From contig NZ_MSIF01000001.1 of NCBI RefSeq assembly GCF_001921215.1, positions 186,001 through 250,000 on the forward strand: DNA of 64,000 bases. The letters are read 5' to 3'. The translations under genes were made by a program, and so were the position numbers. This document shows, in pieces, positions 34,052 through 45,392 of this stretch (the stretch's first letter is position 1; every line of letters starts with the position of its first letter). The stretch comes from Actinophytocola xinjiangensis (GTDB taxonomy: Bacteria > Actinomycetota > Actinomycetes > Mycobacteriales > Pseudonocardiaceae). The notes below the pieces were generated by a model that saw only the letters and a list, made by a program, of their open reading frames with translations, did not search any database and had not been told where the DNA came from.

Positions 34052-34810
34052 TCAGGTCGCGCGCAGCGTGAGGCGGGTCCACGCCCCGAGGTAGACGCGG
34101 TCACCGTCGGCCAGCGGGCGGGGCGTGTTCGGGCGCAGCGGCGCCACCTCGTCGTTGACCGAGACACCGTTGGACGAGTCGAGGTCGACGACCGCCCAGG
34201 TGCCGTCGTCCTGGGCGACCAGCAGCGCGTGCAGGTGCGACACACCCGGGTCCTCCGGCGGACCGGTGAGGTCGATGTCCGGGTCGATGCCCCGCCGGCG
34301 GCTCTGCCGGCCGATGCTGATCTGCGTGCCGCGCAACGGGAAGTTCCGTTCCGGGCAGAACGGCGGGAAGGTGATCCCGCCGGCGTCCGGGCCCTCCGCG
34401 CCGATCACCGTGTCGAAGTACGCCCGGTCGGCGGCCACCGTCACCGTCCACGCCGTCGCGACCGCCGGTTCCGGGGTCGGCTCCGGGGCCGGGGTCGTGT
34501 CCGCCGTCGGCCAGGCCGGCTCCGGGGTCGCGACCGGCGGCGGGCTCACCGGCTTGGGCGGAGGTGCGGCCAGCGAGTCGTGGCCGCACTGCTCGCAGAA
34601 ACGCCCGTAGAGCGGGGCGCCGCAGGCCGCGCAGGGCGTGTCGGGCGCGGGGACGTCCTCCGGTTCCGGCAGCGGGGGAGCGGCCGTCCCCGACGGACCC
34701 GTCCCCGACGGCACGGCCGCCGGCGCGGGACCGTCCATGGCACGGCCGCAGACGTCGCAGTACTCGGGGTCGGCCGAGGCGTGGCCGCTGGGGCACGTCG
34801 ACGTCGCCAT
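34052..34810 (-). CDS. Zinc-ribbon plus FHA-domain protein (phosphothreonine reader)
   Basis: A 252-residue soluble protein. Two Cys4 ribbons open it (CPSGHASADPEYCDVCGRAM and CAACGAPLYGRFCEQCGHD). A Pro/Glu-rich linker follows (about 75-118), and a C-terminal FHA domain ends it: ISIGRQSRRRGIDPDIDL, VSHLHALL and LDSSNGVSVNDEV, which include the Arg, Ser-x-x-His and Asn-Gly residues that contact phosphothreonine. It is the last gene of the kinase operon, one base after the VWA gene. It may read or be a substrate of the PknG-like kinase, but it lacks the N-terminal ETT phosphosite of GarA/OdhI. Confidence 0.88.
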   Translation of the reverse strand: MATSTCPSGHASADPEYCDVCGRAMDGPAPAAVPSGTGPSGTAAPPLPEPEDVPAPDTPCAACGAPLYGRFCEQCGHDSLAAPPPKPVSPPPVATPEPAWPTADTTPAPEPTPEPAVATAWTVTVAADRAYFDTVIGAEGPDAGGITFPPFCPERNFPLRGTQISIGRQSRRRGIDPDIDLTGPPEDPGVSHLHALLVAQDDGTWAVVDLDSSNGVSVNDEVAPLRPNTPRPLADGDRVYLGAWTRLTLRAT

Positions 34811-34811
34811 G

Positions 34812-36110
34812 TCAGCTCTCCGGGGACTTCCGGCGCACCCGCATCGTCTTGCTGGACCGGGTGTCCAGGGTCATCTCGTCGACCGCGGCGACCTTGCGCT
34901 TGAGCCGCACCGTGCCGGTCCGCGCGTCCTCGATGTCGACGACCTTGGACAGCAGCTTCGCGGTGTCGGTGTGGCCGGTCTCGGTCGCCAGCTTCACCGC
35001 GCGGCCCAGCTTGGCCGTCGCGGTCTCCACGTCGCCGGCCTTGCGCGCCTCCAGGCCCTCCTGGATCGCGTCCGCCAGCTCGGCCTGCCCGGTGTAGTGC
35101 GCGACCTCGCGGTTGATCCTGGTCGACAGCGCCGTGTCGTCGGTCCACTGGGCCAGGATGTTGCCCTTGCCGACGACCTGGCCGTCCGGTAACACCAGGC
35201 TGATCCGGCCGGCGAGCATCTTCTCCCCGGTCGAGGCCGCCGGCACCTGCACGCACACGTGGTAGTCGCGGGTCTCCGAACCCCACGAGCCGGTCGGGTA
35301 GTCACCGCTGCGCGGCGGGAACTCGGTACGCCGGCCGGTCAGGTCCGCCAGGGTCGGCTCGACCTGCTTGACGAACTTCACCGCCGCGCCCTGCGGGGTC
35401 CACAGCCGCAGCGACACGTCGGCCACCGCCTTGCTCATCGCCCCGGCCGCCATCGCGCGGAAGTCGGCCTCCAGCTCCTCCGGTTCGGCGACGATGTCGA
35501 CCGTGCCGAGCAGCGCGTCGGCGATCGTGCGCAGCTCCTTGACCTCCCAGTCGGTGCCGATGCCCCGGCAGTCGCAGACGAAGTGGCCGGTGACCGCCTC
35601 GATCGCCTTGGCGAGCTGACGCGGCGTCTCGTGCATGTTCTGGCCGTCGGTCAGCAGGATGGCGTGGCGCATGGAACTCGGGCGGGTGCCGAACAGCTCG
35701 TCGGCCAGCCGCAGCCAGGAGCCGATCGCGGTGCCGCCGTTGGCGGCGAGCCGGTCGACGGCGTTCTTGGCCTCCTCTCGGGTGCGCGGGCCGGCGGGCA
35801 CCAGGTCGTGGCTGCGCGGGTAGACGACGTTGGCCTCGTCGGTGCCGGCGACCACGGCGAACAGCACGCCGTCGCGCAGCGTGTCGATCGCCGCCTTCGT
35901 GGCCTGCTTGGCCGCCAGCAGCTTGCTGCGCGGCACGTGCATCGACCCCGAGCAGTCGACGATGATCACCTCGGCGGCGGTCTCGGACGGCGAGGTCATC
36001 ATCGGCGTACCGGTCGCGGTCACCGTGACGATCGCGTTGACCTCGGTCGCGCCCTGCGACAGGTACTCGTTCTGGTAGACGTCGACCGTGAAGTCCGGTG
36101 CGGCGTTCAT
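34812..36110 (-). CDS. VWA-domain protein of the kinase operon
   Basis: A 432-residue soluble protein. The N-terminal beta region is followed by a von Willebrand A domain (about residues 45-220) with a complete MIDAS site: DCSGSMHVPRSK, NGGTAIGSWL for the conserved Thr, and LLTDGQN for the Asp. The C-terminal part combines an all-beta stretch with a helical region (EGLEARKAGDVETATAKLGRAVKLATETGH) and a basic tail RRKSPES. VWA proteins act as metal-dependent adaptors. It is translationally coupled to the phosphatase upstream. Confidence 0.87.
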   Translation of the reverse strand: MNAAPDFTVDVYQNEYLSQGATEVNAIVTVTATGTPMMTSPSETAAEVIIVDCSGSMHVPRSKLLAAKQATKAAIDTLRDGVLFAVVAGTDEANVVYPRSHDLVPAGPRTREEAKNAVDRLAANGGTAIGSWLRLADELFGTRPSSMRHAILLTDGQNMHETPRQLAKAIEAVTGHFVCDCRGIGTDWEVKELRTIADALLGTVDIVAEPEELEADFRAMAAGAMSKAVADVSLRLWTPQGAAVKFVKQVEPTLADLTGRRTEFPPRSGDYPTGSWGSETRDYHVCVQVPAASTGEKMLAGRISLVLPDGQVVGKGNILAQWTDDTALSTRINREVAHYTGQAELADAIQEGLEARKAGDVETATAKLGRAVKLATETGHTDTAKLLSKVVDIEDARTGTVRLKRKVAAVDEMTLDTRSSKTMRVRRKSPES

Positions 36111-37105
36111 CCTTCGCTCCTGGTCCTCTCGGGGTTCGGGGGGAACGGGACGAGCACGGTGGTGATGTTGTCGTGCCCGCCCAGCTCCAGGGCGACCCTG
36201 GTCAGCTCGTCGGCCGCGCGCGTCGGGTCGACGTCGACCGGTGAGCCGGGCAGCGCCTCGACCAGTGCCGAGGGCTCCGGCAGGTAGTTCCACAGCCCGT
36301 CGCTGCACAGCAGCACCAGCCCGGGGCCCTCGGGCTGGATGGTCAGTGTCCGTGGCTCGATCTGGCCGGCGTCAGCGCCGATCCACTTGGACAGCGCGTG
36401 CGCCTGGTGCACGGCCATCGCCTGCTCCTCGCTCATGCCCTCGGCGACGAGTTCGGTGGCGACCGTGTCGTCGATGGTCAGCACCCGCGCGCCATCGGGC
36501 GCGAGCCAGTACGCGCGGCTGTCGCCGACCCAGCCGACGGTGACGTCGGTCGCGGTGACCACCGCCGAGACGTAGGTGCACGACGGCGCGGTGCCGGGGA
36601 CCGACGGGTCGGCCAGCGCGGTGACCACCTCGATCGCCCTGGCGACGGCCGAGCGGGTGGCCGCGTCGGCGTCCTTGCCCTCCACCGCCGCCTCGAGCAT
36701 CACCGCGAGCGCCTCGTCCACGGCGCGCTGGGAGGCGTTCTCGGCGCGGTCGGAGGTCGCGACGCCGTCGCACACCACCGCGACCACCGTGGGGTTCTCG
36801 CCGGCGGTGGTGCCGAAGGCCATCGAGTCCTCGTTGCGCGCCCGGCGGCGGCCCTTGTCGCTGATGCCGGTGACCACGCCCAGGTCGGACTCCATCCGGT
36901 CGCGGCCGCCGGGCTGGGCCCGTCCGCAGTCCTCGCAGAAGCCGTCCGCGCTCAGGTTCGTCCCGCCGCACGCGACACACGTCCCGGTGGTCGCGGTCCC
37001 CAGCGGGCCGCCCTCCGGGGTGCGGGTGACCAGCAGGTTCGATCCGCAACCTTCACAGAAGCGGTCGTTGGTACCGGCGGACTCGCCGCAGTTGGGACAT
37101 TTCAT
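36107..37105 (-). CDS. PP2C-type Ser/Thr protein phosphatase with N-terminal zinc ribbons
   Basis: A 332-residue phosphatase. Two Cys4 ribbons open the protein (CPNCGESAGTNDRFCEGCGS and CVACGGTNLSADGFCEDCGR). The PP2C domain then shows the metal-binding motifs RARNEDSMAFG, VVAVVCDGVATSD, VGDSRAYWL, LLCSDGLWNYL and GGHDNITTVLV. It is expected to remove phosphate from substrates of the adjacent PknG-like kinase. Both ends overlap neighbours by four bases (pknG before, VWA after). Confidence 0.92.
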   Translation of the reverse strand: MKCPNCGESAGTNDRFCEGCGSNLLVTRTPEGGPLGTATTGTCVACGGTNLSADGFCEDCGRAQPGGRDRMESDLGVVTGISDKGRRRARNEDSMAFGTTAGENPTVVAVVCDGVATSDRAENASQRAVDEALAVMLEAAVEGKDADAATRSAVARAIEVVTALADPSVPGTAPSCTYVSAVVTATDVTVGWVGDSRAYWLAPDGARVLTIDDTVATELVAEGMSEEQAMAVHQAHALSKWIGADAGQIEPRTLTIQPEGPGLVLLCSDGLWNYLPEPSALVEALPGSPVDVDPTRAADELTRVALELGGHDNITTVLVPFPPNPERTRSEG

Positions 37106-39423
37106 ACCCAGGTCCTCGGCCGGATCCGGTTGGCGGTGTCCACCAATGCGATGCGCTCCTTCGTGTTGTCGGCGTGCCTGGCCAGCGTCCGGTAACACCT
37201 TTCCAGACCCGTCCGCAGCCCGTGCTCGGTGAGCGCGTAACCGAGCACCGTGGTGCTGGCGGTGGTGCCGCCGGTGGGGTTGTGTCCGGCCCGGAGCCGG
37301 TCGAACGCGGCCGTGAGGACGTCGGTCGTGGCCCGGACCCGCCGCTGCGCATCGACCTCCAGGTCGGTGAGCAGCGTGCCGGCCGCGGTCAGGTCCTCGT
37401 CGGTGAGCTGGGTGATCGACCCGACCGTGGTACGCGCGCCGACGGCGGCCAGCCGCGCGGCGACGTAGTGGTTGGAGGTCTCGGGCACCGAGCAGAGCAC
37501 CTCGAACGCCTCGTGCCGCTCGCCCCTGGCCAGCAGCGAGCGCGCCAGCCCGAACGCGGCGCTGACGTAGGCGCGGTCGGTGCGCCAGACCACCCGGTAG
37601 TAGCGGTCGGCGGCCAGCCAGTCCTGCATGGCCTCCGCACACGCGGCGATCGCCAGCTTGGGCGCCGCCTCGCCGGGCACGGCCGAGTACACCCGGTCGA
37701 ACCGGTCCCGGGCGGCGGCCGGGTTGTTCTCCGCCAGGTGGGCCAGGCCCCGGTGCCAGTCGACCAGCCACAGCCGGTCGTGGTCCACGGCGTCACGGGC
37801 GACGTCGTCGAGCCGGCGCAGCGCCGAGACCAGGTCACCCAGCTCGATGTAGGCGCGGGCGATGCGCAGCCGCACCTCGATGCTCGACTGCGGCGCGGTG
37901 TGCAGTTCCTCGATCAGCGCGGCCGGGTCGGTCGAGGTGACCGAGGCGAGGAAGGCCGCCGCCGGGTCGGCGCCGTCGATCCTGGGCGCCGGCAGCGAGG
38001 TCACCAGCTCGCCGAGGTCGGGGCCCGACCGCACGCCGTTGCGCACGCCGAAGGCGCGCCGCTCGGGGGTGAACTCGGTCGAGGCGCCCGGCCGGGGCAG
38101 GCCGTCCTCGGTGGCCAGCACCTCACGCAGCACGCCGGTGAGCTGCTCGCGCATCTCCTCGGCCGACCCGAACCGGGCGGTCGGCTCGGCGGCGGCGGCC
38201 CGGCGCAGGAACCGGTCGTAGGACTCGAAGGTGGCCAGCAGCGGCTCGTCGACCGGGTTGGGCAGCGTCTCCCGGTTGCCGTGCTGGAAGTCGAACGGGA
38301 AGGTCATCACCGCGAGCGTGCGGCCGATCGTGTACAGGTCCGACGAGCGCGACGGGCCGACCGAGGCGATCTCCGGCGCCTGGTAGCCGATGGTGCCGTA
38401 GACCGGGCTGTCCTCGTCGTCAACGTGCCGCACGGCGCCGAGGTCGATCAGCTTGAGCTGCTCCTCGGTCTGGATCACGTTGTCCGGCTTGAAGTCGCAG
38501 AACAGCAGGTTCAGCGAGTGCAGGTAGCCGATCGGGGGCAGCATCTCCAGCACGTAGGCGATCGCCTGGGGCAGCGGCAGTACCGCCTCGGCGCCCTGGC
38601 CCTTGCGCAGATTCTTGATCATGTCCTTGAGGGACTGACCGCCGACGTACTCCATCACGATGTAGCCGACCATCGCGCCGGACTCGGCGTCCCGGTGCTG
38701 GACGAAGTTGTGGATCTTGACGATGTTCGGGTGCTCGACCTCGGCCAGGAAGCGCCGCTCGGCCACCGCGGCGGCCATCGCGTCCGCGTCGCCGGTGTCC
38801 AGCAGGCCCTTGAGCACGACCCAGCGGTCGGCCACGGCCCGGTCCAGCGCGAGGTAGATCCAGCCGAGGCCACCGTGGGCCAGACAGCCCAGCACCTCGT
38901 ACTGGTCGTGCAGCACCTCGCCGGGGGACAGCTTCGGGCTGAAGGAGAACCGGTGCCCGCACTTGGTGCAGAAGCCCTCGGTGCGGCCCGGCGTGCCCTC
39001 GCTGCCCCGGCCGACCTTCGTCCCGCAGCTGCTGCAGAAGCGCTTGGACTCGGGCACCTTCGGGTCGGCCAGCACCGCCGACCTCGGGTCGCGGTAGGGC
39101 ACCCGGGGGATCTCCACCAGCCCGGCGCCCAGCAGCCCGCGCGAGGACGACCGGGTGGAGCCGCGCCGCGACCTGGTGGTCACCGCGCCGGACGCCGCCG
39201 TCGGGCTCGTCCAGTTGGTGGCCGTGCTGCCGGTGCGGGTACTGCGGGTGCTGACGGTCGGCCCGTCCAGTTCGGCGGGTGCCGGCGCACCGGTCGCGGG
39301 GGCGGCCGACGCACCGACCGTGGCCGGCGCCGGCGCGGTGACCGGTGCCTCCAGGCCGCAGGTGTCGCAGTAGCCGTCCTCGTCGATGGTGCCCGAGCAG
39401 TCCGGCCGGGAGCACGCGGTCAT
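37102..39423 (-). CDS. pknG: PknG-like Ser/Thr protein kinase with zinc ribbon, rubredoxin-like, kinase and TPR domains
   Basis: A 773-residue soluble kinase. Order: N-terminal Cys4 ribbon (CSRPDCSGTIDEDGYCDTCG), a disordered Ser/Thr/Ala linker, a rubredoxin-like metal site (FCSSCGTKV...GFCTKCGHRF), the kinase domain with GCLAHGGLGWIYLALD, the ATP lysine in WVVLKGLLD, the catalytic loop LLFCDFKPDNV and LIDLGAVRH in place of DFG, then a C-terminal TPR solenoid. This is the PknG architecture plus one extra N-terminal ribbon. In mycobacteria and corynebacteria PknG controls 2-oxoglutarate dehydrogenase through GarA/OdhI in response to amino acids sensed by GlnH-GlnX, and here both partners are in the same operon. 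Confidence 0.95.
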   Translation of the reverse strand: MTACSRPDCSGTIDEDGYCDTCGLEAPVTAPAPATVGASAAPATGAPAPAELDGPTVSTRSTRTGSTATNWTSPTAASGAVTTRSRRGSTRSSSRGLLGAGLVEIPRVPYRDPRSAVLADPKVPESKRFCSSCGTKVGRGSEGTPGRTEGFCTKCGHRFSFSPKLSPGEVLHDQYEVLGCLAHGGLGWIYLALDRAVADRWVVLKGLLDTGDADAMAAAVAERRFLAEVEHPNIVKIHNFVQHRDAESGAMVGYIVMEYVGGQSLKDMIKNLRKGQGAEAVLPLPQAIAYVLEMLPPIGYLHSLNLLFCDFKPDNVIQTEEQLKLIDLGAVRHVDDEDSPVYGTIGYQAPEIASVGPSRSSDLYTIGRTLAVMTFPFDFQHGNRETLPNPVDEPLLATFESYDRFLRRAAAAEPTARFGSAEEMREQLTGVLREVLATEDGLPRPGASTEFTPERRAFGVRNGVRSGPDLGELVTSLPAPRIDGADPAAAFLASVTSTDPAALIEELHTAPQSSIEVRLRIARAYIELGDLVSALRRLDDVARDAVDHDRLWLVDWHRGLAHLAENNPAAARDRFDRVYSAVPGEAAPKLAIAACAEAMQDWLAADRYYRVVWRTDRAYVSAAFGLARSLLARGERHEAFEVLCSVPETSNHYVAARLAAVGARTTVGSITQLTDEDLTAAGTLLTDLEVDAQRRVRATTDVLTAAFDRLRAGHNPTGGTTASTTVLGYALTEHGLRTGLERCYRTLARHADNTKERIALVDTANRIRPRTWV

Positions 39424-40646
39424 CTGGTCGCCTCCTCGGGTGGCCGCTCCCTGTCCTGGAGAGCCTGCTGGTATCGGTTGAGCGCGCGGGTCGCCGCCGG
39501 CAGGTCGCACGGTGCGGTGAACAGCAGCTTATGCGCGGTGGTGTGCAGTTCCTGCAGCGCGAGGTCCTCGGCGTGGCCGAGGCGGGCGGCCTTCACCTGG
39601 AAGGCCTCCAGCCGGCCCCGCAGTTCGGCGCGCCGGTCGAGCAGCCCGCCGATGGTCCGCACCGACCGGCGGACCGCGTCGAGCGTGGCGGCGGCCAGCC
39701 GGTCCAGCCGGTCGGCGGTGGCCGCCAGCTCGGCCCAGCGGCCGGTGTCGCGGCGGGCGGCCAGCGCCCTGAGCTCGGCGTGCAGCCGGGTCGACCCCTC
39801 GCTCGTCGGTTCGGCCAGCCCGGGGTTGGCGATCTTGTCCACGACCGCGGTCCAGGTCTGGCGGGCGGTCGCCTCCGCCGCCTCGATGTCGGCGCACACC
39901 TGGTCGAGGGCGCCGAGCCGGGCGTCGAAGGTGTCCCGCACGGTGGCGGTCTCGGCCAACCGCTCGCGCAGCGCCGCCAGCTCACTCTCGATCCCGGCCA
40001 GCGGATCGGTGGCGGCCACCGACAGCGGATCGGTCACCACCCGTTCGCGGGCGTCGTCGAGTCCGGCGCGGATCCGGTCGAGCTGACCGGTCGTGGCCCC
40101 GTCGCCGGCGGCGACCGACTCGACCAGGATCGACACCGAGCGCAGCTGGTCGGTCAGCGGGTCGAGCCGGCCGATCGTCGCCGACCAGGTCGACTCGGCG
40201 GTGGAGAGCACCTCGATCACCTTCGCGAAGGACTGCTTCATCCGCGCCAGCAGCTCGTCCATGGTGATCCGCTCGACGATCACCGCCGGGCCGGTCAGCC
40301 CGCGCTGTTCCAGGGGGATGTGCTCGGGCTTGAGGCTCACCACCGACCCGGTGAGCAGGGTGTGGAGTTCGGCGAGGTCGTCGTCGTTGGGTCGGGAGCG
40401 CCGGCCACGGATCTCCCGCGCCTTGTCGATCAGCCCCTTGTAGGTGCCGAACTGGTCCCACAGCGCGGCCATCGCCGCCGCGGTCTCCGCCCAGCGGCGC
40501 TCGGTCAGCCCGGTCAGCGCGGCGCCACGCAGCAGCTGGTGCCCGGGGTGTCCGTCCATCTCGACCAGCGACTGGCCGATGGTGTCGCTGTCGGCGACCA
40601 GGCGCTCCAGCTCGTGGTCGGCCTGCTCGCGGGTCAACGCACTCAC
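39420..40646 (-). CDS. Coiled-coil hypothetical protein inserted between glnH and pknG
   Basis: A 408-residue, almost wholly helical protein without signal peptide or membrane segments. Long heptad-rich stretches are visible (LAGIESELAALRERLAETATVRDTFDARLGALDQVCADIEAAEATARQTW, here read in pieces across residues 215-265, and RRAELRGRLEAFQVKAARLG). I do not recognise a family. It overlaps both glnH and pknG by four bases, so stoichiometric co-production with them is likely. A scaffold between the membrane sensor and the kinase is a reasonable guess, no more. Confidence 0.8.
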   Translation of the reverse strand: MSALTREQADHELERLVADSDTIGQSLVEMDGHPGHQLLRGAALTGLTERRWAETAAAMAALWDQFGTYKGLIDKAREIRGRRSRPNDDDLAELHTLLTGSVVSLKPEHIPLEQRGLTGPAVIVERITMDELLARMKQSFAKVIEVLSTAESTWSATIGRLDPLTDQLRSVSILVESVAAGDGATTGQLDRIRAGLDDARERVVTDPLSVAATDPLAGIESELAALRERLAETATVRDTFDARLGALDQVCADIEAAEATARQTWTAVVDKIANPGLAEPTSEGSTRLHAELRALAARRDTGRWAELAATADRLDRLAAATLDAVRRSVRTIGGLLDRRAELRGRLEAFQVKAARLGHAEDLALQELHTTAHKLLFTAPCDLPAATRALNRYQQALQDRERPPEEATR

Positions 40647-41656
40647 GAGCGGTACCTGGCCACCGGCGGCTGGGCCGGGACGTCGAGCAGCGGCTTCATC
40701 CAGTGGTCGTAGCTGCGGACCCAGGCACCGCTGGTGCGGGTCTGCTCGATCACGCCGTTGACGAACCGGACGAAGTCCGACTCGCCCTTGGGGATCGCCA
40801 TGCCGTACGGCTCGGTGTAGATCGGGTCGCCGACGACCATGGTCGTCGGGTCCTGGGCGACCAGCCCGGCCAGGATCGTGTCGTCGGTGGACACCGCGTC
40901 GACCTGGTGCTGCTGGAGCAGCACCAGGCAGTCGGTCCAGTTCTGGACCTGTACGGGCACCGGCTTGGACGGCGCGGCGGCGATGTTGCGCAGCGACGTG
41001 GACCCCTCGGCCGCGCAGACCCTCTTGTCGCCGAGGGACTCCATGCCGGTGTGGCCGGAGTGCTTCTTGACCAGCACCCGCTGGCCGGCCTCGTAGTACA
41101 CCGAGGAGAAGTCGACCTTCTCCAGCCGCTCGCAGGTGATCGACATCGTGCGGATGACGATGTCCACGTCACCGTTCTCCAGCACCGGGATGCGCTGGGA
41201 GGAGGTGATCGCGCGCAGCCGCACCTTGTTCGGATCACCGAAGATCGCGTTGGCGATGGCGCGCGCCATGTCGATGTCGAAGCCGACGATCTCGCCGGTG
41301 TCCGGCTCGCGGTAGCCGAAGTTGAAGGTGTTCTGGTCGACGCCGACGGTCAGCATCCCCTTGGCCCTGATCCGCGCCATCGTCGAGCCGGACGGCATGT
41401 CGCCGGGCGCCGGCAGCGCGCCGGCGGGCGGCAGGCTCTGCGCGGTCGGGTCCTCGCAGTTCTGCTCGGCCGGGGTGTCCAGCGGCTCGGTCACCACGCG
41501 TGCGCCCGCCGGCCAGGGCGGCTTCACCTCGATCGCCGGCGACCCGACCGTCTCGCCGGTGCCGCAGGCGGTGACGGTGGCGGTGGCGACGGTGAGGGCC
41601 AGCGCGGCCAGCGCGCGACGGTGGCGGGTCGGTCGATGGGTCGGTCGGCGGGTCAT
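40643..41656 (-). CDS. glnH: GlnH-like amino-acid-binding lipoprotein
   Basis: A 337-residue lipoprotein: signal peptide with lipobox VTAC (Cys31), a Pro-rich linker, then a type II periplasmic-binding fold (ARIRAKGMLTVGVDQNTFNFGYREPDTGEIVGFDIDMARAIANAIFG, here spanning about residues 95-140, and later VDIVIRTMSITCERLEKVDFS). In the PknG pathway GlnH binds aspartate or glutamate outside the membrane and signals through GlnX rather than feeding a transporter. No ABC permease or ATPase adjoins it, which fits a sensor role. Confidence 0.92.
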   Translation of the reverse strand: MTRRPTHRPTRHRRALAALALTVATATVTACGTGETVGSPAIEVKPPWPAGARVVTEPLDTPAEQNCEDPTAQSLPPAGALPAPGDMPSGSTMARIRAKGMLTVGVDQNTFNFGYREPDTGEIVGFDIDMARAIANAIFGDPNKVRLRAITSSQRIPVLENGDVDIVIRTMSITCERLEKVDFSSVYYEAGQRVLVKKHSGHTGMESLGDKRVCAAEGSTSLRNIAAAPSKPVPVQVQNWTDCLVLLQQHQVDAVSTDDTILAGLVAQDPTTMVVGDPIYTEPYGMAIPKGESDFVRFVNGVIEQTRTSGAWVRSYDHWMKPLLDVPAQPPVARYRS

Positions 41657-42942
41657 CGGTACTCCTTGAGCCGCTGCCAGATTCCGGTGGCCGAGCCGAC
41701 GGCCATCAGCACGGCGAGCACGATCACTCCGATCACGGTGCCGGTGACCGCGTTGCTCGCCTGGGAGATCTCGTCGGTGAACACGGTGTTGGACTCCCCG
41801 AGCGCGGTCCCCAGGTCCTCGTCGACGGCGTCGAAGTGTGTCCGGGCGCCGTTGGCGTCCTCGCCGACGGCCAGGTCGACGGCGCGGCCGTAGTCGCCGC
41901 CGTCGTCGGCCTCGCGGAGTTCGTCGTGGACCTGCTTCCACTTCGCCCAGGCCGTCTCGGCGTCGGGCAGGCCCGCCTCGCCCAGACGGGACTCCAGGCC
42001 GGGGAAGATCTCGTCGAACTCGTCGTTGAACGCGCCGCCGCTGCCCCGGGCGACGAGGGTGAGGGTCTCGTTGGCGCGGGCGGTGAGCGCGGCGATCCGG
42101 GTCTCGGTCAGCTCGCCGATCCGCTCGGAGCCGGCGCGGCTCTGGTCGACGTTGTGCGAGACGCCGAGCACGGCGATGAGCACCCACAGCACCGAGACCA
42201 GCGCGGCGCCGGTGGCCACCAGCAGGCCGACGTTGAACACGCGCCGGGTGGTCCGCCGCAGGTAGACCTGGGTGATGATCAGGATGGCCAGGGCGATGAT
42301 CCCGAGGACCACCTCGACGACGGGGAAGCCGTCGGCGCGGTCCTGGTCGGCGGCCAGGCGCGCGGACTCGGCCGCGAACAGCTCCTCGGCGGCCGGCAGC
42401 AGCTCGGTCCGCATGAGGTTGGAGGCCATCTGCTGGTCGGACGCGCCGACCGGGAAGCCCTGGAGGTTGTTGGCGCGGGCGCGCTCGATGATGCCGGTGT
42501 AGACCGACAGCCGGGTCGACAGGACGTCCAGCGGCCCGTCGCCGACCGACATCTCGGCCGGCTCCCTGGCGGCGACCGCGACCGCGATGGCGGACTCGGC
42601 CTGGGCGATGTCGGTGAGATATCGGTTGCGTAACTCGGCCGACTCGGCGCCGCTGGACAGGAAGGCACTGGTCGCGGTGACGTCCGCGTCCGACAGTGCC
42701 CGGTAGATGTCCTGGGCGGCGACGCTGAGCGGTCCACTGCGCTGCGCCAGGTCCTCGAGAGCGGCACTGCGTCCGCGCACTCCGACGGCTGTCAACACCC
42801 CGACGAGGATGCTCACCAGCACCAATGCGCCCGTGAGCACGGTGAGTACCCCTGGCGTGGTCCTGGCGAGGCTGTTCAGTTCGGCGACGCGCTCGGCCCG
42901 CGTCGGCCGTGCTGGCCGGTCCGTCTCGACGATCGCGGTCAC
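41653..42942 (-). CDS. glnX: GlnX-like four-helix transmembrane sensor
   Basis: A 429-residue membrane protein with four hydrophobic segments: about residues 33-55, 205-228, 238-262 and 398-420. Between the first two is an extracytoplasmic helical sensor region (ALSDADVTATSAFLSSG) resembling four-helix-bundle sensors, and a second such loop lies between helices three and four. It ends in a short basic cytoplasmic tail (GIWQRLKEYR). It matches GlnX, which relays GlnH ligand binding to PknG. It is first in the operon; the GTG start follows a G-rich ribosome site (AAAGGGGGG) with a 10-nt spacer. Confidence 0.9.
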   Translation of the reverse strand: MTAIVETDRPARPTRAERVAELNSLARTTPGVLTVLTGALVLVSILVGVLTAVGVRGRSAALEDLAQRSGPLSVAAQDIYRALSDADVTATSAFLSSGAESAELRNRYLTDIAQAESAIAVAVAAREPAEMSVGDGPLDVLSTRLSVYTGIIERARANNLQGFPVGASDQQMASNLMRTELLPAAEELFAAESARLAADQDRADGFPVVEVVLGIIALAILIITQVYLRRTTRRVFNVGLLVATGAALVSVLWVLIAVLGVSHNVDQSRAGSERIGELTETRIAALTARANETLTLVARGSGGAFNDEFDEIFPGLESRLGEAGLPDAETAWAKWKQVHDELREADDGGDYGRAVDLAVGEDANGARTHFDAVDEDLGTALGESNTVFTDEISQASNAVTGTVIGVIVLAVLMAVGSATGIWQRLKEYR

Positions 42943-43110: not shown

Positions 43111-43503
43111 GTGATCGACTTCAGACTCGACAAGGGCTCGGGTGTCGCTACCTACCTGCAGCTGGTCCACCAAGTGAAACAGGCACTGCGCCTGGGGGTA
43201 CTGCACGCCGGCGACCGATTGCCAACCGCGAAGGATGTGGTCGCCAAGCTGGCGATCAATCCCAACACCGTGCTGAAGGCCTACCGCGAACTGGAACGTG
43301 AGGGTCTGGTCACCGCGCGTCCCGGGCTGGGCACCTTCGTCGAACGCTCACTGGGCACCGCGTCGCTGGTCGACCACGCCCGGCTGCGCCGGGAACTGGG
43401 CCGGGTGGTGCGCGAGGGCCGCGCCGCCGGCCTCGACGACGAGGACCTGCGGGCGCTGTTCACCTCGGTACTGACCGACTCGTTCCGGGAGGAAACGGCA
43501 TGA
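43111..43503 (+). CDS. GntR-family regulator, YtrA subfamily
   Basis: A 130-residue regulator: winged HTH (TYLQLVHQVKQALRLGVLHAGDRLPTAKDVVAKLAINPNTVLKAYRELEREGLVTARPGLGTFV, residues about 14-78) plus only a short C-terminal helix region, the hallmark of the YtrA subfamily. These regulators control the ABC transporter genes in their own operon, often in cell-envelope stress. It overlaps the ATPase gene by four bases, and the palindrome at 43081 is its likely site. Confidence 0.92.
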   Translation: MIDFRLDKGSGVATYLQLVHQVKQALRLGVLHAGDRLPTAKDVVAKLAINPNTVLKAYRELEREGLVTARPGLGTFVERSLGTASLVDHARLRRELGRVVREGRAAGLDDEDLRALFTSVLTDSFREETA

Positions 43504-44417
43504 CCGAAACGGTCCTCGAGGCCACCGGCCTCGGCAAGCGCTACCGCCGCCGGTGGGCACTGCGCGACTGCTCACTGGCGGTGCCGGCCGGGCGGGTGGT
43601 CGCCCTGGTCGGTCCGAACGGCGCCGGCAAGACCACGCTGCTGCACCTGGCCGCCGGTCTGCTCGCACCGACCGCCGGCACCGTGCGGGTGCTCGGCTCC
43701 CCGGCCGGCCACGAACGCGGCCGGGTCGCGTTCCTCGCCCAGGACAAACCCCTCTACGAGACCTTCACCGTCGCCGACATGCTCCGCTTCGGCCGGCGGA
43801 TGAACCCCGTCTGGGACGACGGGTTCGCCCGGGCACGACTGGCCGGGCTCGACATCCCGCTCGACCACCGCACCGGCCGGCTCTCCGGCGGGCAGCAGGC
43901 CCAGGTCGCGCTGACCGTCGCCCTGGCCAAACGACCCGACCTGCTCCTGCTCGACGAACCGATGGCCAACCTCGACCCGCTGGCCCGCCACGAGGTCATG
44001 CGCGACCTGATGGCCGTCGTCGCCGACACCGGGCTGACCGTGCTGCTGTCCTCACACGTGGTCTCCGACCTGGAGAACACCTGCGACTGGCTGGTCGTGG
44101 TCAACCGGGGCCGCGTCCAGGTCAGCGGCGACATCGAGGACCTGCTCGGCGCCCACCACCTGCTGTCCGGGCCGGCCGAACTGGCCGGGGCGGTGGCCTC
44201 CCGGCTGGCGGTGGTCGAGGACGACCGCACCGACCGCCAGGCCACCCTGCTGGTCCGCGCCACCGACGGCCTGCCGGCCCTGGACCCGCGCTGGCACGTC
44301 CGCCCGGTCGCCCTGGAGGAACTGGTCCTGTCCTACCTGCGCCAACCGGAGTCGGCGGCGCTGCCCCGGCTGGTCATGGCCGGGGCAGCCCCGACCGATC
44401 CCGTTCCGTTCCCCTGA
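43500..44417 (+). CDS. ABC transporter ATP-binding protein (YtrA-linked)
   Basis: A 305-residue ABC ATPase. Walker A GPNGAGKTT, Q-loop FLAQDKPLY, signature LSGGQQAQVAL, Walker B LLLLDEPMANLD, and the switch His in LLSSHVVSD. The C-terminal 80 residues are an accessory domain as in drug or bacteriocin exporters. It works with the permease that follows. Confidence 0.92.
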   Translation: MTETVLEATGLGKRYRRRWALRDCSLAVPAGRVVALVGPNGAGKTTLLHLAAGLLAPTAGTVRVLGSPAGHERGRVAFLAQDKPLYETFTVADMLRFGRRMNPVWDDGFARARLAGLDIPLDHRTGRLSGGQQAQVALTVALAKRPDLLLLDEPMANLDPLARHEVMRDLMAVVADTGLTVLLSSHVVSDLENTCDWLVVVNRGRVQVSGDIEDLLGAHHLLSGPAELAGAVASRLAVVEDDRTDRQATLLVRATDGLPALDPRWHVRPVALEELVLSYLRQPESAALPRLVMAGAAPTDPVPFP

Positions 44418-44438
44418 CCTACCCAAGGAGTTCCTGTC

Positions 44439-45392
44439 GTGTTGTGGCTCGTCTGGCGCCAGCACCGGTTACCGGTACTGGTCACGTCGGTCCTGTTGCT
44501 CGCCTTCGGCACGGTGTTGCTCGTGCACGGCCTGCGCACCGTCGACCTCACCGCCGGCCTCGCGGCCGGCAGCGAGGAACTCGACGCGCTGCTGGACCGG
44601 CGCTTCCACGACCTGTACCTGTTCTTCAACTGGCTGCCGCTGGTCCCGGCGCTGGCCGGCCTGTTCCTCGGCGCGCCCGTGCTGGCCAGGGAACACGAGA
44701 CCGGCACCGCCGCCCTCGCCTGGACCCAGTCGGTCTCACCGCGCCGGTGGGTCGTGACCAAGCTGCTCGTGCTCGGCACGGTGGTCACCCTCTGCGGACT
44801 CGCGCTGGGCGCCATGCTCAACGCCTGGCTGGGCACCCTCGACGAACTGGGCCAGGGCAACCGGTTCGCGCTGGTACCGCTGTTCGGCGGTTCCGGGGTG
44901 GTCTCCGGGGCGTGGTGGCTGTTCTCGTTCGTCATGGGCGTCGCGGCCGGCACCGTGCTGCGCCGCACGGTCCCGGCCATGGCCGTGGCCCTCGCCGCCT
45001 ACGTGGTGGCGTTCGTGGTGATCGTCTCGCCGATCGTCGACTTCCGGGACATGTACGCCGAACCGACACGTGTCGTCCAGGACAGCCCCGCCGACGCCCG
45101 GCCCGCCGGATCCGTGTCGGCCGGGTCCGACTGGCTGGACCCCGACGGCCGCACGGTCGACTCGGACATGTACCCGGTCGCCAGCGCCGCCGGCTGCCCC
45201 GACGAGGGCCCGCAGTTCGACTACAGCCCCTGCCTGTTCACCAAGGGCTACCGGATGGCCGTCGAGTTCTACCCGCCGACCATGTACTGGCGGTTCCAGT
45301 GGACCGAGACGGCGATCCTGACCGGCGTCGCGCTCGCGGTCGGCGGCCTGGTGGTCTGGTCGGCGCGCCGCCCTACCGGGGGCCGGCGCTGA
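44439..45392 (+). CDS. ABC transporter permease (YtrA-linked)
   Basis: A 317-residue membrane protein with about six helices: residues 12-32, 62-80, 108-128, 152-175, 180-200 and 285-308. REHETGTAALAWTQSVSPRRWVVTK after the second helix is typical of ABC-2-type permeases. A large extracytoplasmic loop (about 205-280) contains two Cys that could form a disulfide. GTG start after AAGGAG. The end overlaps the convergent response regulator by 20 bp. The substrate is unknown. Confidence 0.86.
   Translation: MLWLVWRQHRLPVLVTSVLLLAFGTVLLVHGLRTVDLTAGLAAGSEELDALLDRRFHDLYLFFNWLPLVPALAGLFLGAPVLAREHETGTAALAWTQSVSPRRWVVTKLLVLGTVVTLCGLALGAMLNAWLGTLDELGQGNRFALVPLFGGSGVVSGAWWLFSFVMGVAAGTVLRRTVPAMAVALAAYVVAFVVIVSPIVDFRDMYAEPTRVVQDSPADARPAGSVSAGSDWLDPDGRTVDSDMYPVASAAGCPDEGPQFDYSPCLFTKGYRMAVEFYPPTMYWRFQWTETAILTGVALAVGGLVVWSARRPTGGRR

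Follow-up and report, generated by a model that had tools for sequence, protein, structure and literature searches.

An extended PknG operon of Actinophytocola xinjiangensis encoding a candidate phosphatase, phospho-reader and scaffold alongside the kinase

Kinase, phosphatase and forkhead-associated (FHA) proteins form sets in the threonine phosphorylation pathway of the type VI secretion system (T6SS), PpkA–PppA–Fha, and the TerY-phosphorylation (TerY-P) triad comprises genes for a von Willebrand factor type A (VWA) protein, a PP2C phosphatase and a kinase. A vWA domain of PpkA is described in PMC1262709. The well-studied Ser/Thr kinase PknG is treated, in PMC8546545, PMC9769921 and PMC6069109, as part of a three-gene operon, glnX-glnH-pknG, with a distant FHA target. 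Here we describe a seven-gene extended PknG operon in a 64,000-nucleotide stretch of the A. xinjiangensis genome (the window), in which glnX, glnH and pknG are joined by genes for a helical protein (CC), a PP2C phosphatase, a VWA protein and an FHA protein. The literature searched, mostly without subscription journals, gave no description of such an operon, which may be mentioned elsewhere, for example in the STRING neighbourhood in Figure 2B of PMC6069109. The comparisons below show the identity, fixed order and co-occurrence of the genes, and intact catalytic, FHA and metal-ion-dependent adhesion site (MIDAS) residues; as the best explanation of the whole we favour, with moderate confidence, a PknG module equipped with an eraser, a reader and a scaffold of its own.

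The seven genes, in the order glnX-glnH-CC-pknG-PP2C-VWA-FHA, all lie on the minus strand at 34052–42942 of the window. The first five junctions are overlaps of 4 bases each (4, 4, 4, 4, 4) and the last, between VWA and FHA, is a 1-base gap, a layout that an earlier note on this DNA had given exactly. The genes encode:

41653..42942, minus strand: GlnX-family membrane signal transducer, 429 aa, GTG start, C-terminus ...RLKEYR
40643..41656, minus strand: GlnH-like solute-binding lipoprotein, 337 aa; SBP_bac_3, E 2.4e-30
39420..40646, minus strand: helical protein CC, 408 aa, GTG start
37102..39423, minus strand: PknG, 773 aa; N-terminal zinc knuckle, Ser/Thr-rich linker, rubredoxin, kinase and TPR domains
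36107..37105, minus strand: PP2C phosphatase with double zinc ribbon, 332 aa; DZR 31.4 and PP2C_2 43.4 bits, both above cut-off
34812..36110, minus strand: VWA protein with MIDAS and conserved Ser/Thr C-terminal tail, 432 aa; VWA_3 58.9 and VWA_3_C 81.2 bits
34052..34810, minus strand: FHA protein, 252 aa, carrying a pair of zinc ribbons at its N-terminus; FHA 48.2 bits

Pfam and NCBIfam searches, which covered the operon and three genes beside it, bore out the GlnX, GlnH, PknG, PP2C, VWA and FHA identities proposed in the earlier note. GlnX scored 408.6 bits against NF058618 (cut-off 250) and 190.5 bits against the narrower equivalog NF041460, below its cut-off of 780; GlnX open reading frames (ORFs) end in R-[LIVR]-x-E-[YF]-x in 73 of 85 cases and in R-I-N-D-[YF]-R in 7 more. 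GlnH matched the Mycobacterium tuberculosis GlnH structure 6h1u (E 2.4e-72), PknG matched structure 2pzi (E 2.6e-169) with Pfam scores of 101.6 (PF16919, PknG_rubred), 91.9 (PF00069, Pkinase) and 288.3 bits (PF16918, PknG_TPR), and VWA matched the solved structure 4fx5 over 424 positions (E 3.7e-178). For CC, a Pfam search gave no significant match, and since its AlphaFold model is nearly all helix (mean predicted local distance difference test score 92.9), the 'coiled-coil' protein of the earlier note is better described as a helical bundle, probably a scaffold. Zinc ribbons, which the earlier note did not mention, are present on PknG, PP2C and FHA; the DZR score of the FHA protein (16.9) is below the 27.3 cut-off.

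Compared with the GlnX–GlnH–PknG–GarA/OdhI pathway of mycobacteria and corynebacteria, the locus is alike in its GlnX, GlnH and PknG homologues and their order, in the rubredoxin–kinase–TPR architecture of PknG and in a near-identical GlnH pocket. It differs in adding CC, PP2C, VWA and an FHA protein with zinc ribbons and, in the rows inspected, in an additional zinc knuckle close to the N-terminus of PknG. GarA/OdhI is encoded elsewhere, on a separate contig of the host genome (G000:C67:102491, 223.8 bits, cut-off 200), whereas the operon FHA protein reached 17.8 of the 200 bits needed against the OdhI model; we therefore rejected the operon FHA protein as GarA/OdhI, in agreement with the separation made in the earlier note, a conclusion that concerns this FHA protein only. 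As in the T6SS pathway, an FHA reader and a VWA domain work, or are encoded, alongside a kinase and a PP2C phosphatase; here, however, the VWA is a separate protein, the kinase is PknG with GlnX/GlnH input, and the FHA protein scored 31.6 of 120.25 bits against TagH (TIGR03354), which places it outside Fha/TagH. Unlike the TerY-P triad, the operon includes amino-acid sensor genes; its VWA had no match in PADLOC, where the presence of a TerY model was left unchecked, and its PP2C matched PDC-M21C only, at 27 bits. The VWA protein belongs to the same family as 4fx5, which is titled von Willebrand factor type A.

To compare gene order, as the earlier note had proposed, we surveyed 246 genomes of the class. 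PknG_TPR occurred in 90 of them, in 88 above the family cut-off. Including the window there were 118 PknG places above the cut-off; 100 of the 117 others were fetched, up to 20 kb each, giving 101 loci. The 17 unfetched places comprised 11 from the Mycobacteriaceae-like family f2 and six others, two of which 17 were later fetched as L225 and L226; the names of f2 (Mycobacteriaceae) and f18 (Streptomycetaceae) are inferred. Profiles derived from the proteins of the window served to score the six-frame stop-to-stop ORFs of each locus, without a gene caller, and gene orders were taken by domain midpoint. For FHA, a recount used a core-domain profile at 30 bits, as the full FHA profile catches proline-rich ORFs (L076, L092, L113); a threshold of 60 bits would drop seven loci (four f24, one f12, one f38, one f17). 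Two of the loci so caught, L092 and L113 of f2, are second PknG copies with neither GlnX nor GlnH nearby, and their FHA-profile matches, which have no FHA-core match, are probably proline-rich artefacts.

The four core genes occurred together in 49 of the 101 PknG loci, the window included, from 49 genomes of eight families, and all 49 had the order PknG>PP2C>VWA>FHA with the recognised members on one strand. GlnX and GlnH were also present in 48 of the 49, ahead of the core as GlnX>GlnH in 38 and behind it in 10, the last locus, without both, being cut by a contig end; 38 scored above 60 bits for CC too. Each of the 21 typical PknG loci fetched from f18 (Streptomyces-type) genomes was of the extended type. 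The free drift of PP2C, VWA and FHA away from PknG, named in the earlier note as the outcome that would speak against a unit, was not observed.

A second survey started from the VWA protein. Its family occurred in 59 of the 246 class genomes, 58 of which have PknG, in none of the 21 f2 genomes having PknG, and in 9 of 197 phylum genomes, one of them outside the class. Of 78 VWA matches, 65 had a PknG match no more than 10 kb away, a pairing from which sub-cut-off PknG was left out except for one weak fragment (G245:C102, 25.7 bits) that made one VWA match near. The 13 away from PknG comprised four at contig ends or on contigs shorter than 7 kb (G221, G160:C259, G229:C358, G237), eight f17 copies far from any PknG, and one on a 6-kb contig of G133, a genome without PknG. 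Named VWA loci included Actinophytocola, Kibdelosporangium, Saccharothrix, Kutzneria, Actinoallomurus, Actinomadura, Streptacidiphilus and Streptomyces; among the best 80 of at least 582, the four core genes were present in 67 and all seven in 64, all 80 were on one strand and the core order was broken in none. Several of the 13 loci without all four core genes sit on short contigs, although these were not checked singly. In the window's own family, 18 of 18 VWA matches (E≤1e-150) adjoin PknG, as compared by eye.

Alignments showed that the catalytic, FHA and MIDAS residues are kept. The PknG catalytic residues K205, D310, K312, N315 and D327 are conserved in 49 of 50 aligned rows, the remaining row being a gap, and the PP2C metal-site Asp columns in 48 of 48. 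Across 13 rows, D52, S54, S56, T127 and D155 of VWA are invariant, as are L415, S419 and T422 of its tail; the Ser/Thr tail pattern was found in 46 of 49 VWA proteins of extended loci versus 0 of 11 other VWA proteins. In the FHA protein (11 rows), the zinc residues C6, H10, C18, C21, C60, C72 and C75 are invariant and C63 nearly so, and in its FHA domain G167, R168, S191, N214 and G215 are invariant, with H194 nearly so. A two-knuckle zinc pattern was present in 48 of 49 PP2C and 47 of 49 FHA proteins of extended loci and in no VWA (0/49), CC (0/38) or GlnX (0/48) protein. We considered pseudokinases and pseudophosphatases in Streptomyces-type rows and rejected them: the alignment shows the catalytic residues kept (CDFKVDN, IDMGAV, RHHRNED), the apparent motif loss being an artefact of too strict a motif pattern.

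For GlnH, the ligand contacts listed in PMC6069109 were compared: R147, T162, S164, R169, W232 and D250 are kept and K161 is replaced by Arg, six of seven being identical to M. tuberculosis GlnH. By these residues the window GlnH is predicted to have an acidic amino-acid pocket. The position of Trp232, which contacts Asp/Glu, is Gln in 20 of 21 f18 rows (L033–L053), Tyr in 15 of 15 f16 rows and variable in f17 and f24, which suggests that different ligands may feed one kinase core.

We infer from these data the following scheme, in all its phosphorylation, binding, docking, ligand and output steps. GlnH would bind an extracellular amino acid, in A. xinjiangensis probably Asp or Glu, and GlnX, by homology, would carry the GlnH state across the membrane; PknG, its TPR docked to the GlnX C-terminal peptide, would, again by homology, be switched on. 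Its targets would be PknG itself and local substrates, among which Ser/Thr residues of the conserved VWA tail are the likeliest. The phospho-site would be read by the FHA protein, which would so build or break a PknG–VWA–FHA complex, PP2C would erase the site and CC would provide the scaffold, and the similar zinc ribbons of PknG, PP2C and FHA could help to draw eraser and reader to the kinase. GarA, encoded elsewhere, would be a possible additional or separate target. If the genes form such a working unit, a candidate phosphatase, reader and substrate lie together in one operon, the VWA family of 4fx5 gains a gene context, the reading of PknG evolution changes, and the shared zinc ribbons would be an unusual tie between writer, eraser and reader. 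The earlier note's interpretation is supported in part, for the linkage of the genes and the distinctness of the FHA gene from GarA; action of the kinase on FHA or VWA, and an output other than 2-oxoglutarate dehydrogenase control, are hypotheses.

Several observations weigh against this scheme. More than half of the PknG loci (52 of 101) were without one or more of the four core genes; 23 of 101 were plain GlnX+GlnH+PknG, 10 of these in f17, and among the 12 f2 loci fetched 10 had GlnX-GlnH-PknG only and two PknG only, which speaks against a strict reading of the earlier note. Three f16 loci had PP2C and FHA without VWA and three f17 loci VWA and FHA without PP2C. Within the window's family the VWA gene (E≤1e-150) was found in 17 of 80 genomes though 58 of 80 have PknG, it was missing from both congeners sampled, and the Fisher test of VWA against PknG (p 1e-32) ignores phylogeny. 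The two-knuckle zinc pattern was seen in just 19 of 49 extended-locus PknG proteins; at least one CxxC/TG knuckle precedes the kinase in 49 of 49, and since 11 of 12 Mycobacteriaceae-like PknG proteins have one too, zinc knuckles do not distinguish extended PknG. The linker of Streptomyces-type PknG is Ser-rich, not Thr-rich, and is therefore a poorer fit with FHA docking on PknG.

The output may instead be that of mycobacteria: the operon would be the GarA/OdhI pathway plus regulators, in which PknG phosphorylates the distant GarA, PP2C resets GarA and VWA and FHA only tune the kinase. The known architecture is indeed kept in GlnX, GlnH and PknG, and at E≤1e-25 the GarA/OdhI model had a match in 242 of the 246 class genomes, in 28 with a score above the curated cut-off. 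The uniformly extended type of the Streptomyces-type loci also favours a GarA output and counts against a separate one: because the sampled genomes of this type have a GarA-like gene, yet no typical PknG outside the extended operon, that operon may serve GarA too. However, GarA is near-universal even in genomes without PknG, the three-gene locus L093 of the host genome could serve GarA, and an additional PknG_TPR match, its neighbours fetched for the window's genome only, is present in 12 of the 17 window-family genomes that carry VWA. We regard a GarA output alone as possible but rather unlikely. A looser arrangement, in which PP2C-VWA-FHA is an independent module of TerY-P or T6SS PpkA/PppA/Fha type merely co-transcribed with PknG, would account for the f17 triads that have no PknG match nearby (L213, L216, L217, L218, L219, L227), which also speak against the self-contained module, and kinase–phosphatase–FHA sets are known from T6SS regulation. 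The triad L213, the only one with neighbours identified, lies between genes for a SpoU methylase and a cysteinyl-tRNA synthetase. Against such independence stand PknG in all but one of the VWA genomes and the identical core order; moreover, the stand-alone triads look like derived duplicates, since in the VWA tree they nest within f17 beside the extended-operon row L068. This arrangement seems improbable, and the self-contained PknG module remains our preferred explanation.

Mere chromosomal synteny was rejected, as the three flanking genes scored are not conserved save for one in a close relative. Among 197 loci, the downstream helicase (DUF3516) was present only in the window and its Actinophytocola relative L133, the second neighbouring ABC gene in no locus besides the window, and the first had 55 other matches, all weak, those shown scoring 102–111 bits versus 661 for itself. 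Upstream, divergent genes at 43111–45392 on the plus strand, a short ORF that is GntR-like by eye followed by ABC-transporter genes, are outside the conserved operon.

The host genome has three PknG-type loci: the window operon, the three-gene GlnX-GlnH-PknG locus L093 and L094 (G000:C56:326000-345990), a third type with a GlnX-like gene, a PknG-TPR kinase, a VWA protein whose C-terminal end is ribbon-like and, where CC would stand, a protein that is trypsin-like plus helical. The third type also occurs in L096 and L090; the trypsin-like peptidase was Pfam-tested in L094 and L096, the GlnX-like gene is present in these two, and neither PP2C nor FHA was found in any of the three.

All trees were quick searches. 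The VWA tree follows families for the most part, and both it and the PknG tree with named relatives place the window with Actinophytocola and then other Pseudonocardiaceae, the family to which named VWA-family matches also assign it. The first PknG tree made the host's three-gene copy a neighbour of the window PknG, a placement that was dropped when denser sampling did not keep it; in the denser tree, to which Pseudonocardiaceae rows were added, the three-gene PknG of Mycobacteriaceae-like genomes and those of the window's family lie together to one side of a branch (support 24). As to whether the three-gene form was derived by loss, the parsimony root set is ambiguous. The third type branches outside (midpoint root, long branches) and also links VWA and kinase, which suggests that the VWA–kinase pair is old. 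A tentative and rather doubtful extension would make the three-gene operon a stripped remnant of a seven-part, zinc-ribbon-tagged ancestral machine, with reversible PknG–VWA–FHA assembly rather than 2-oxoglutarate dehydrogenase control as its main output and with interchangeable GlnH amino-acid specificity.

Three further observations concern single loci. L138, a contig labelled Acidobacteriaceae, has an operon like those of Pseudonocardiaceae and groups within that family in the trees, so that it is probably metagenome sequence assigned to the wrong taxon. Two f17 loci, L214 and L215, combine a PP2C-VWA-FHA triad with CC and a divergent kinase. The f18 copy of the operon in L226 (G134:C25) is fragmented, with GlnX, PknG and VWA in pieces.

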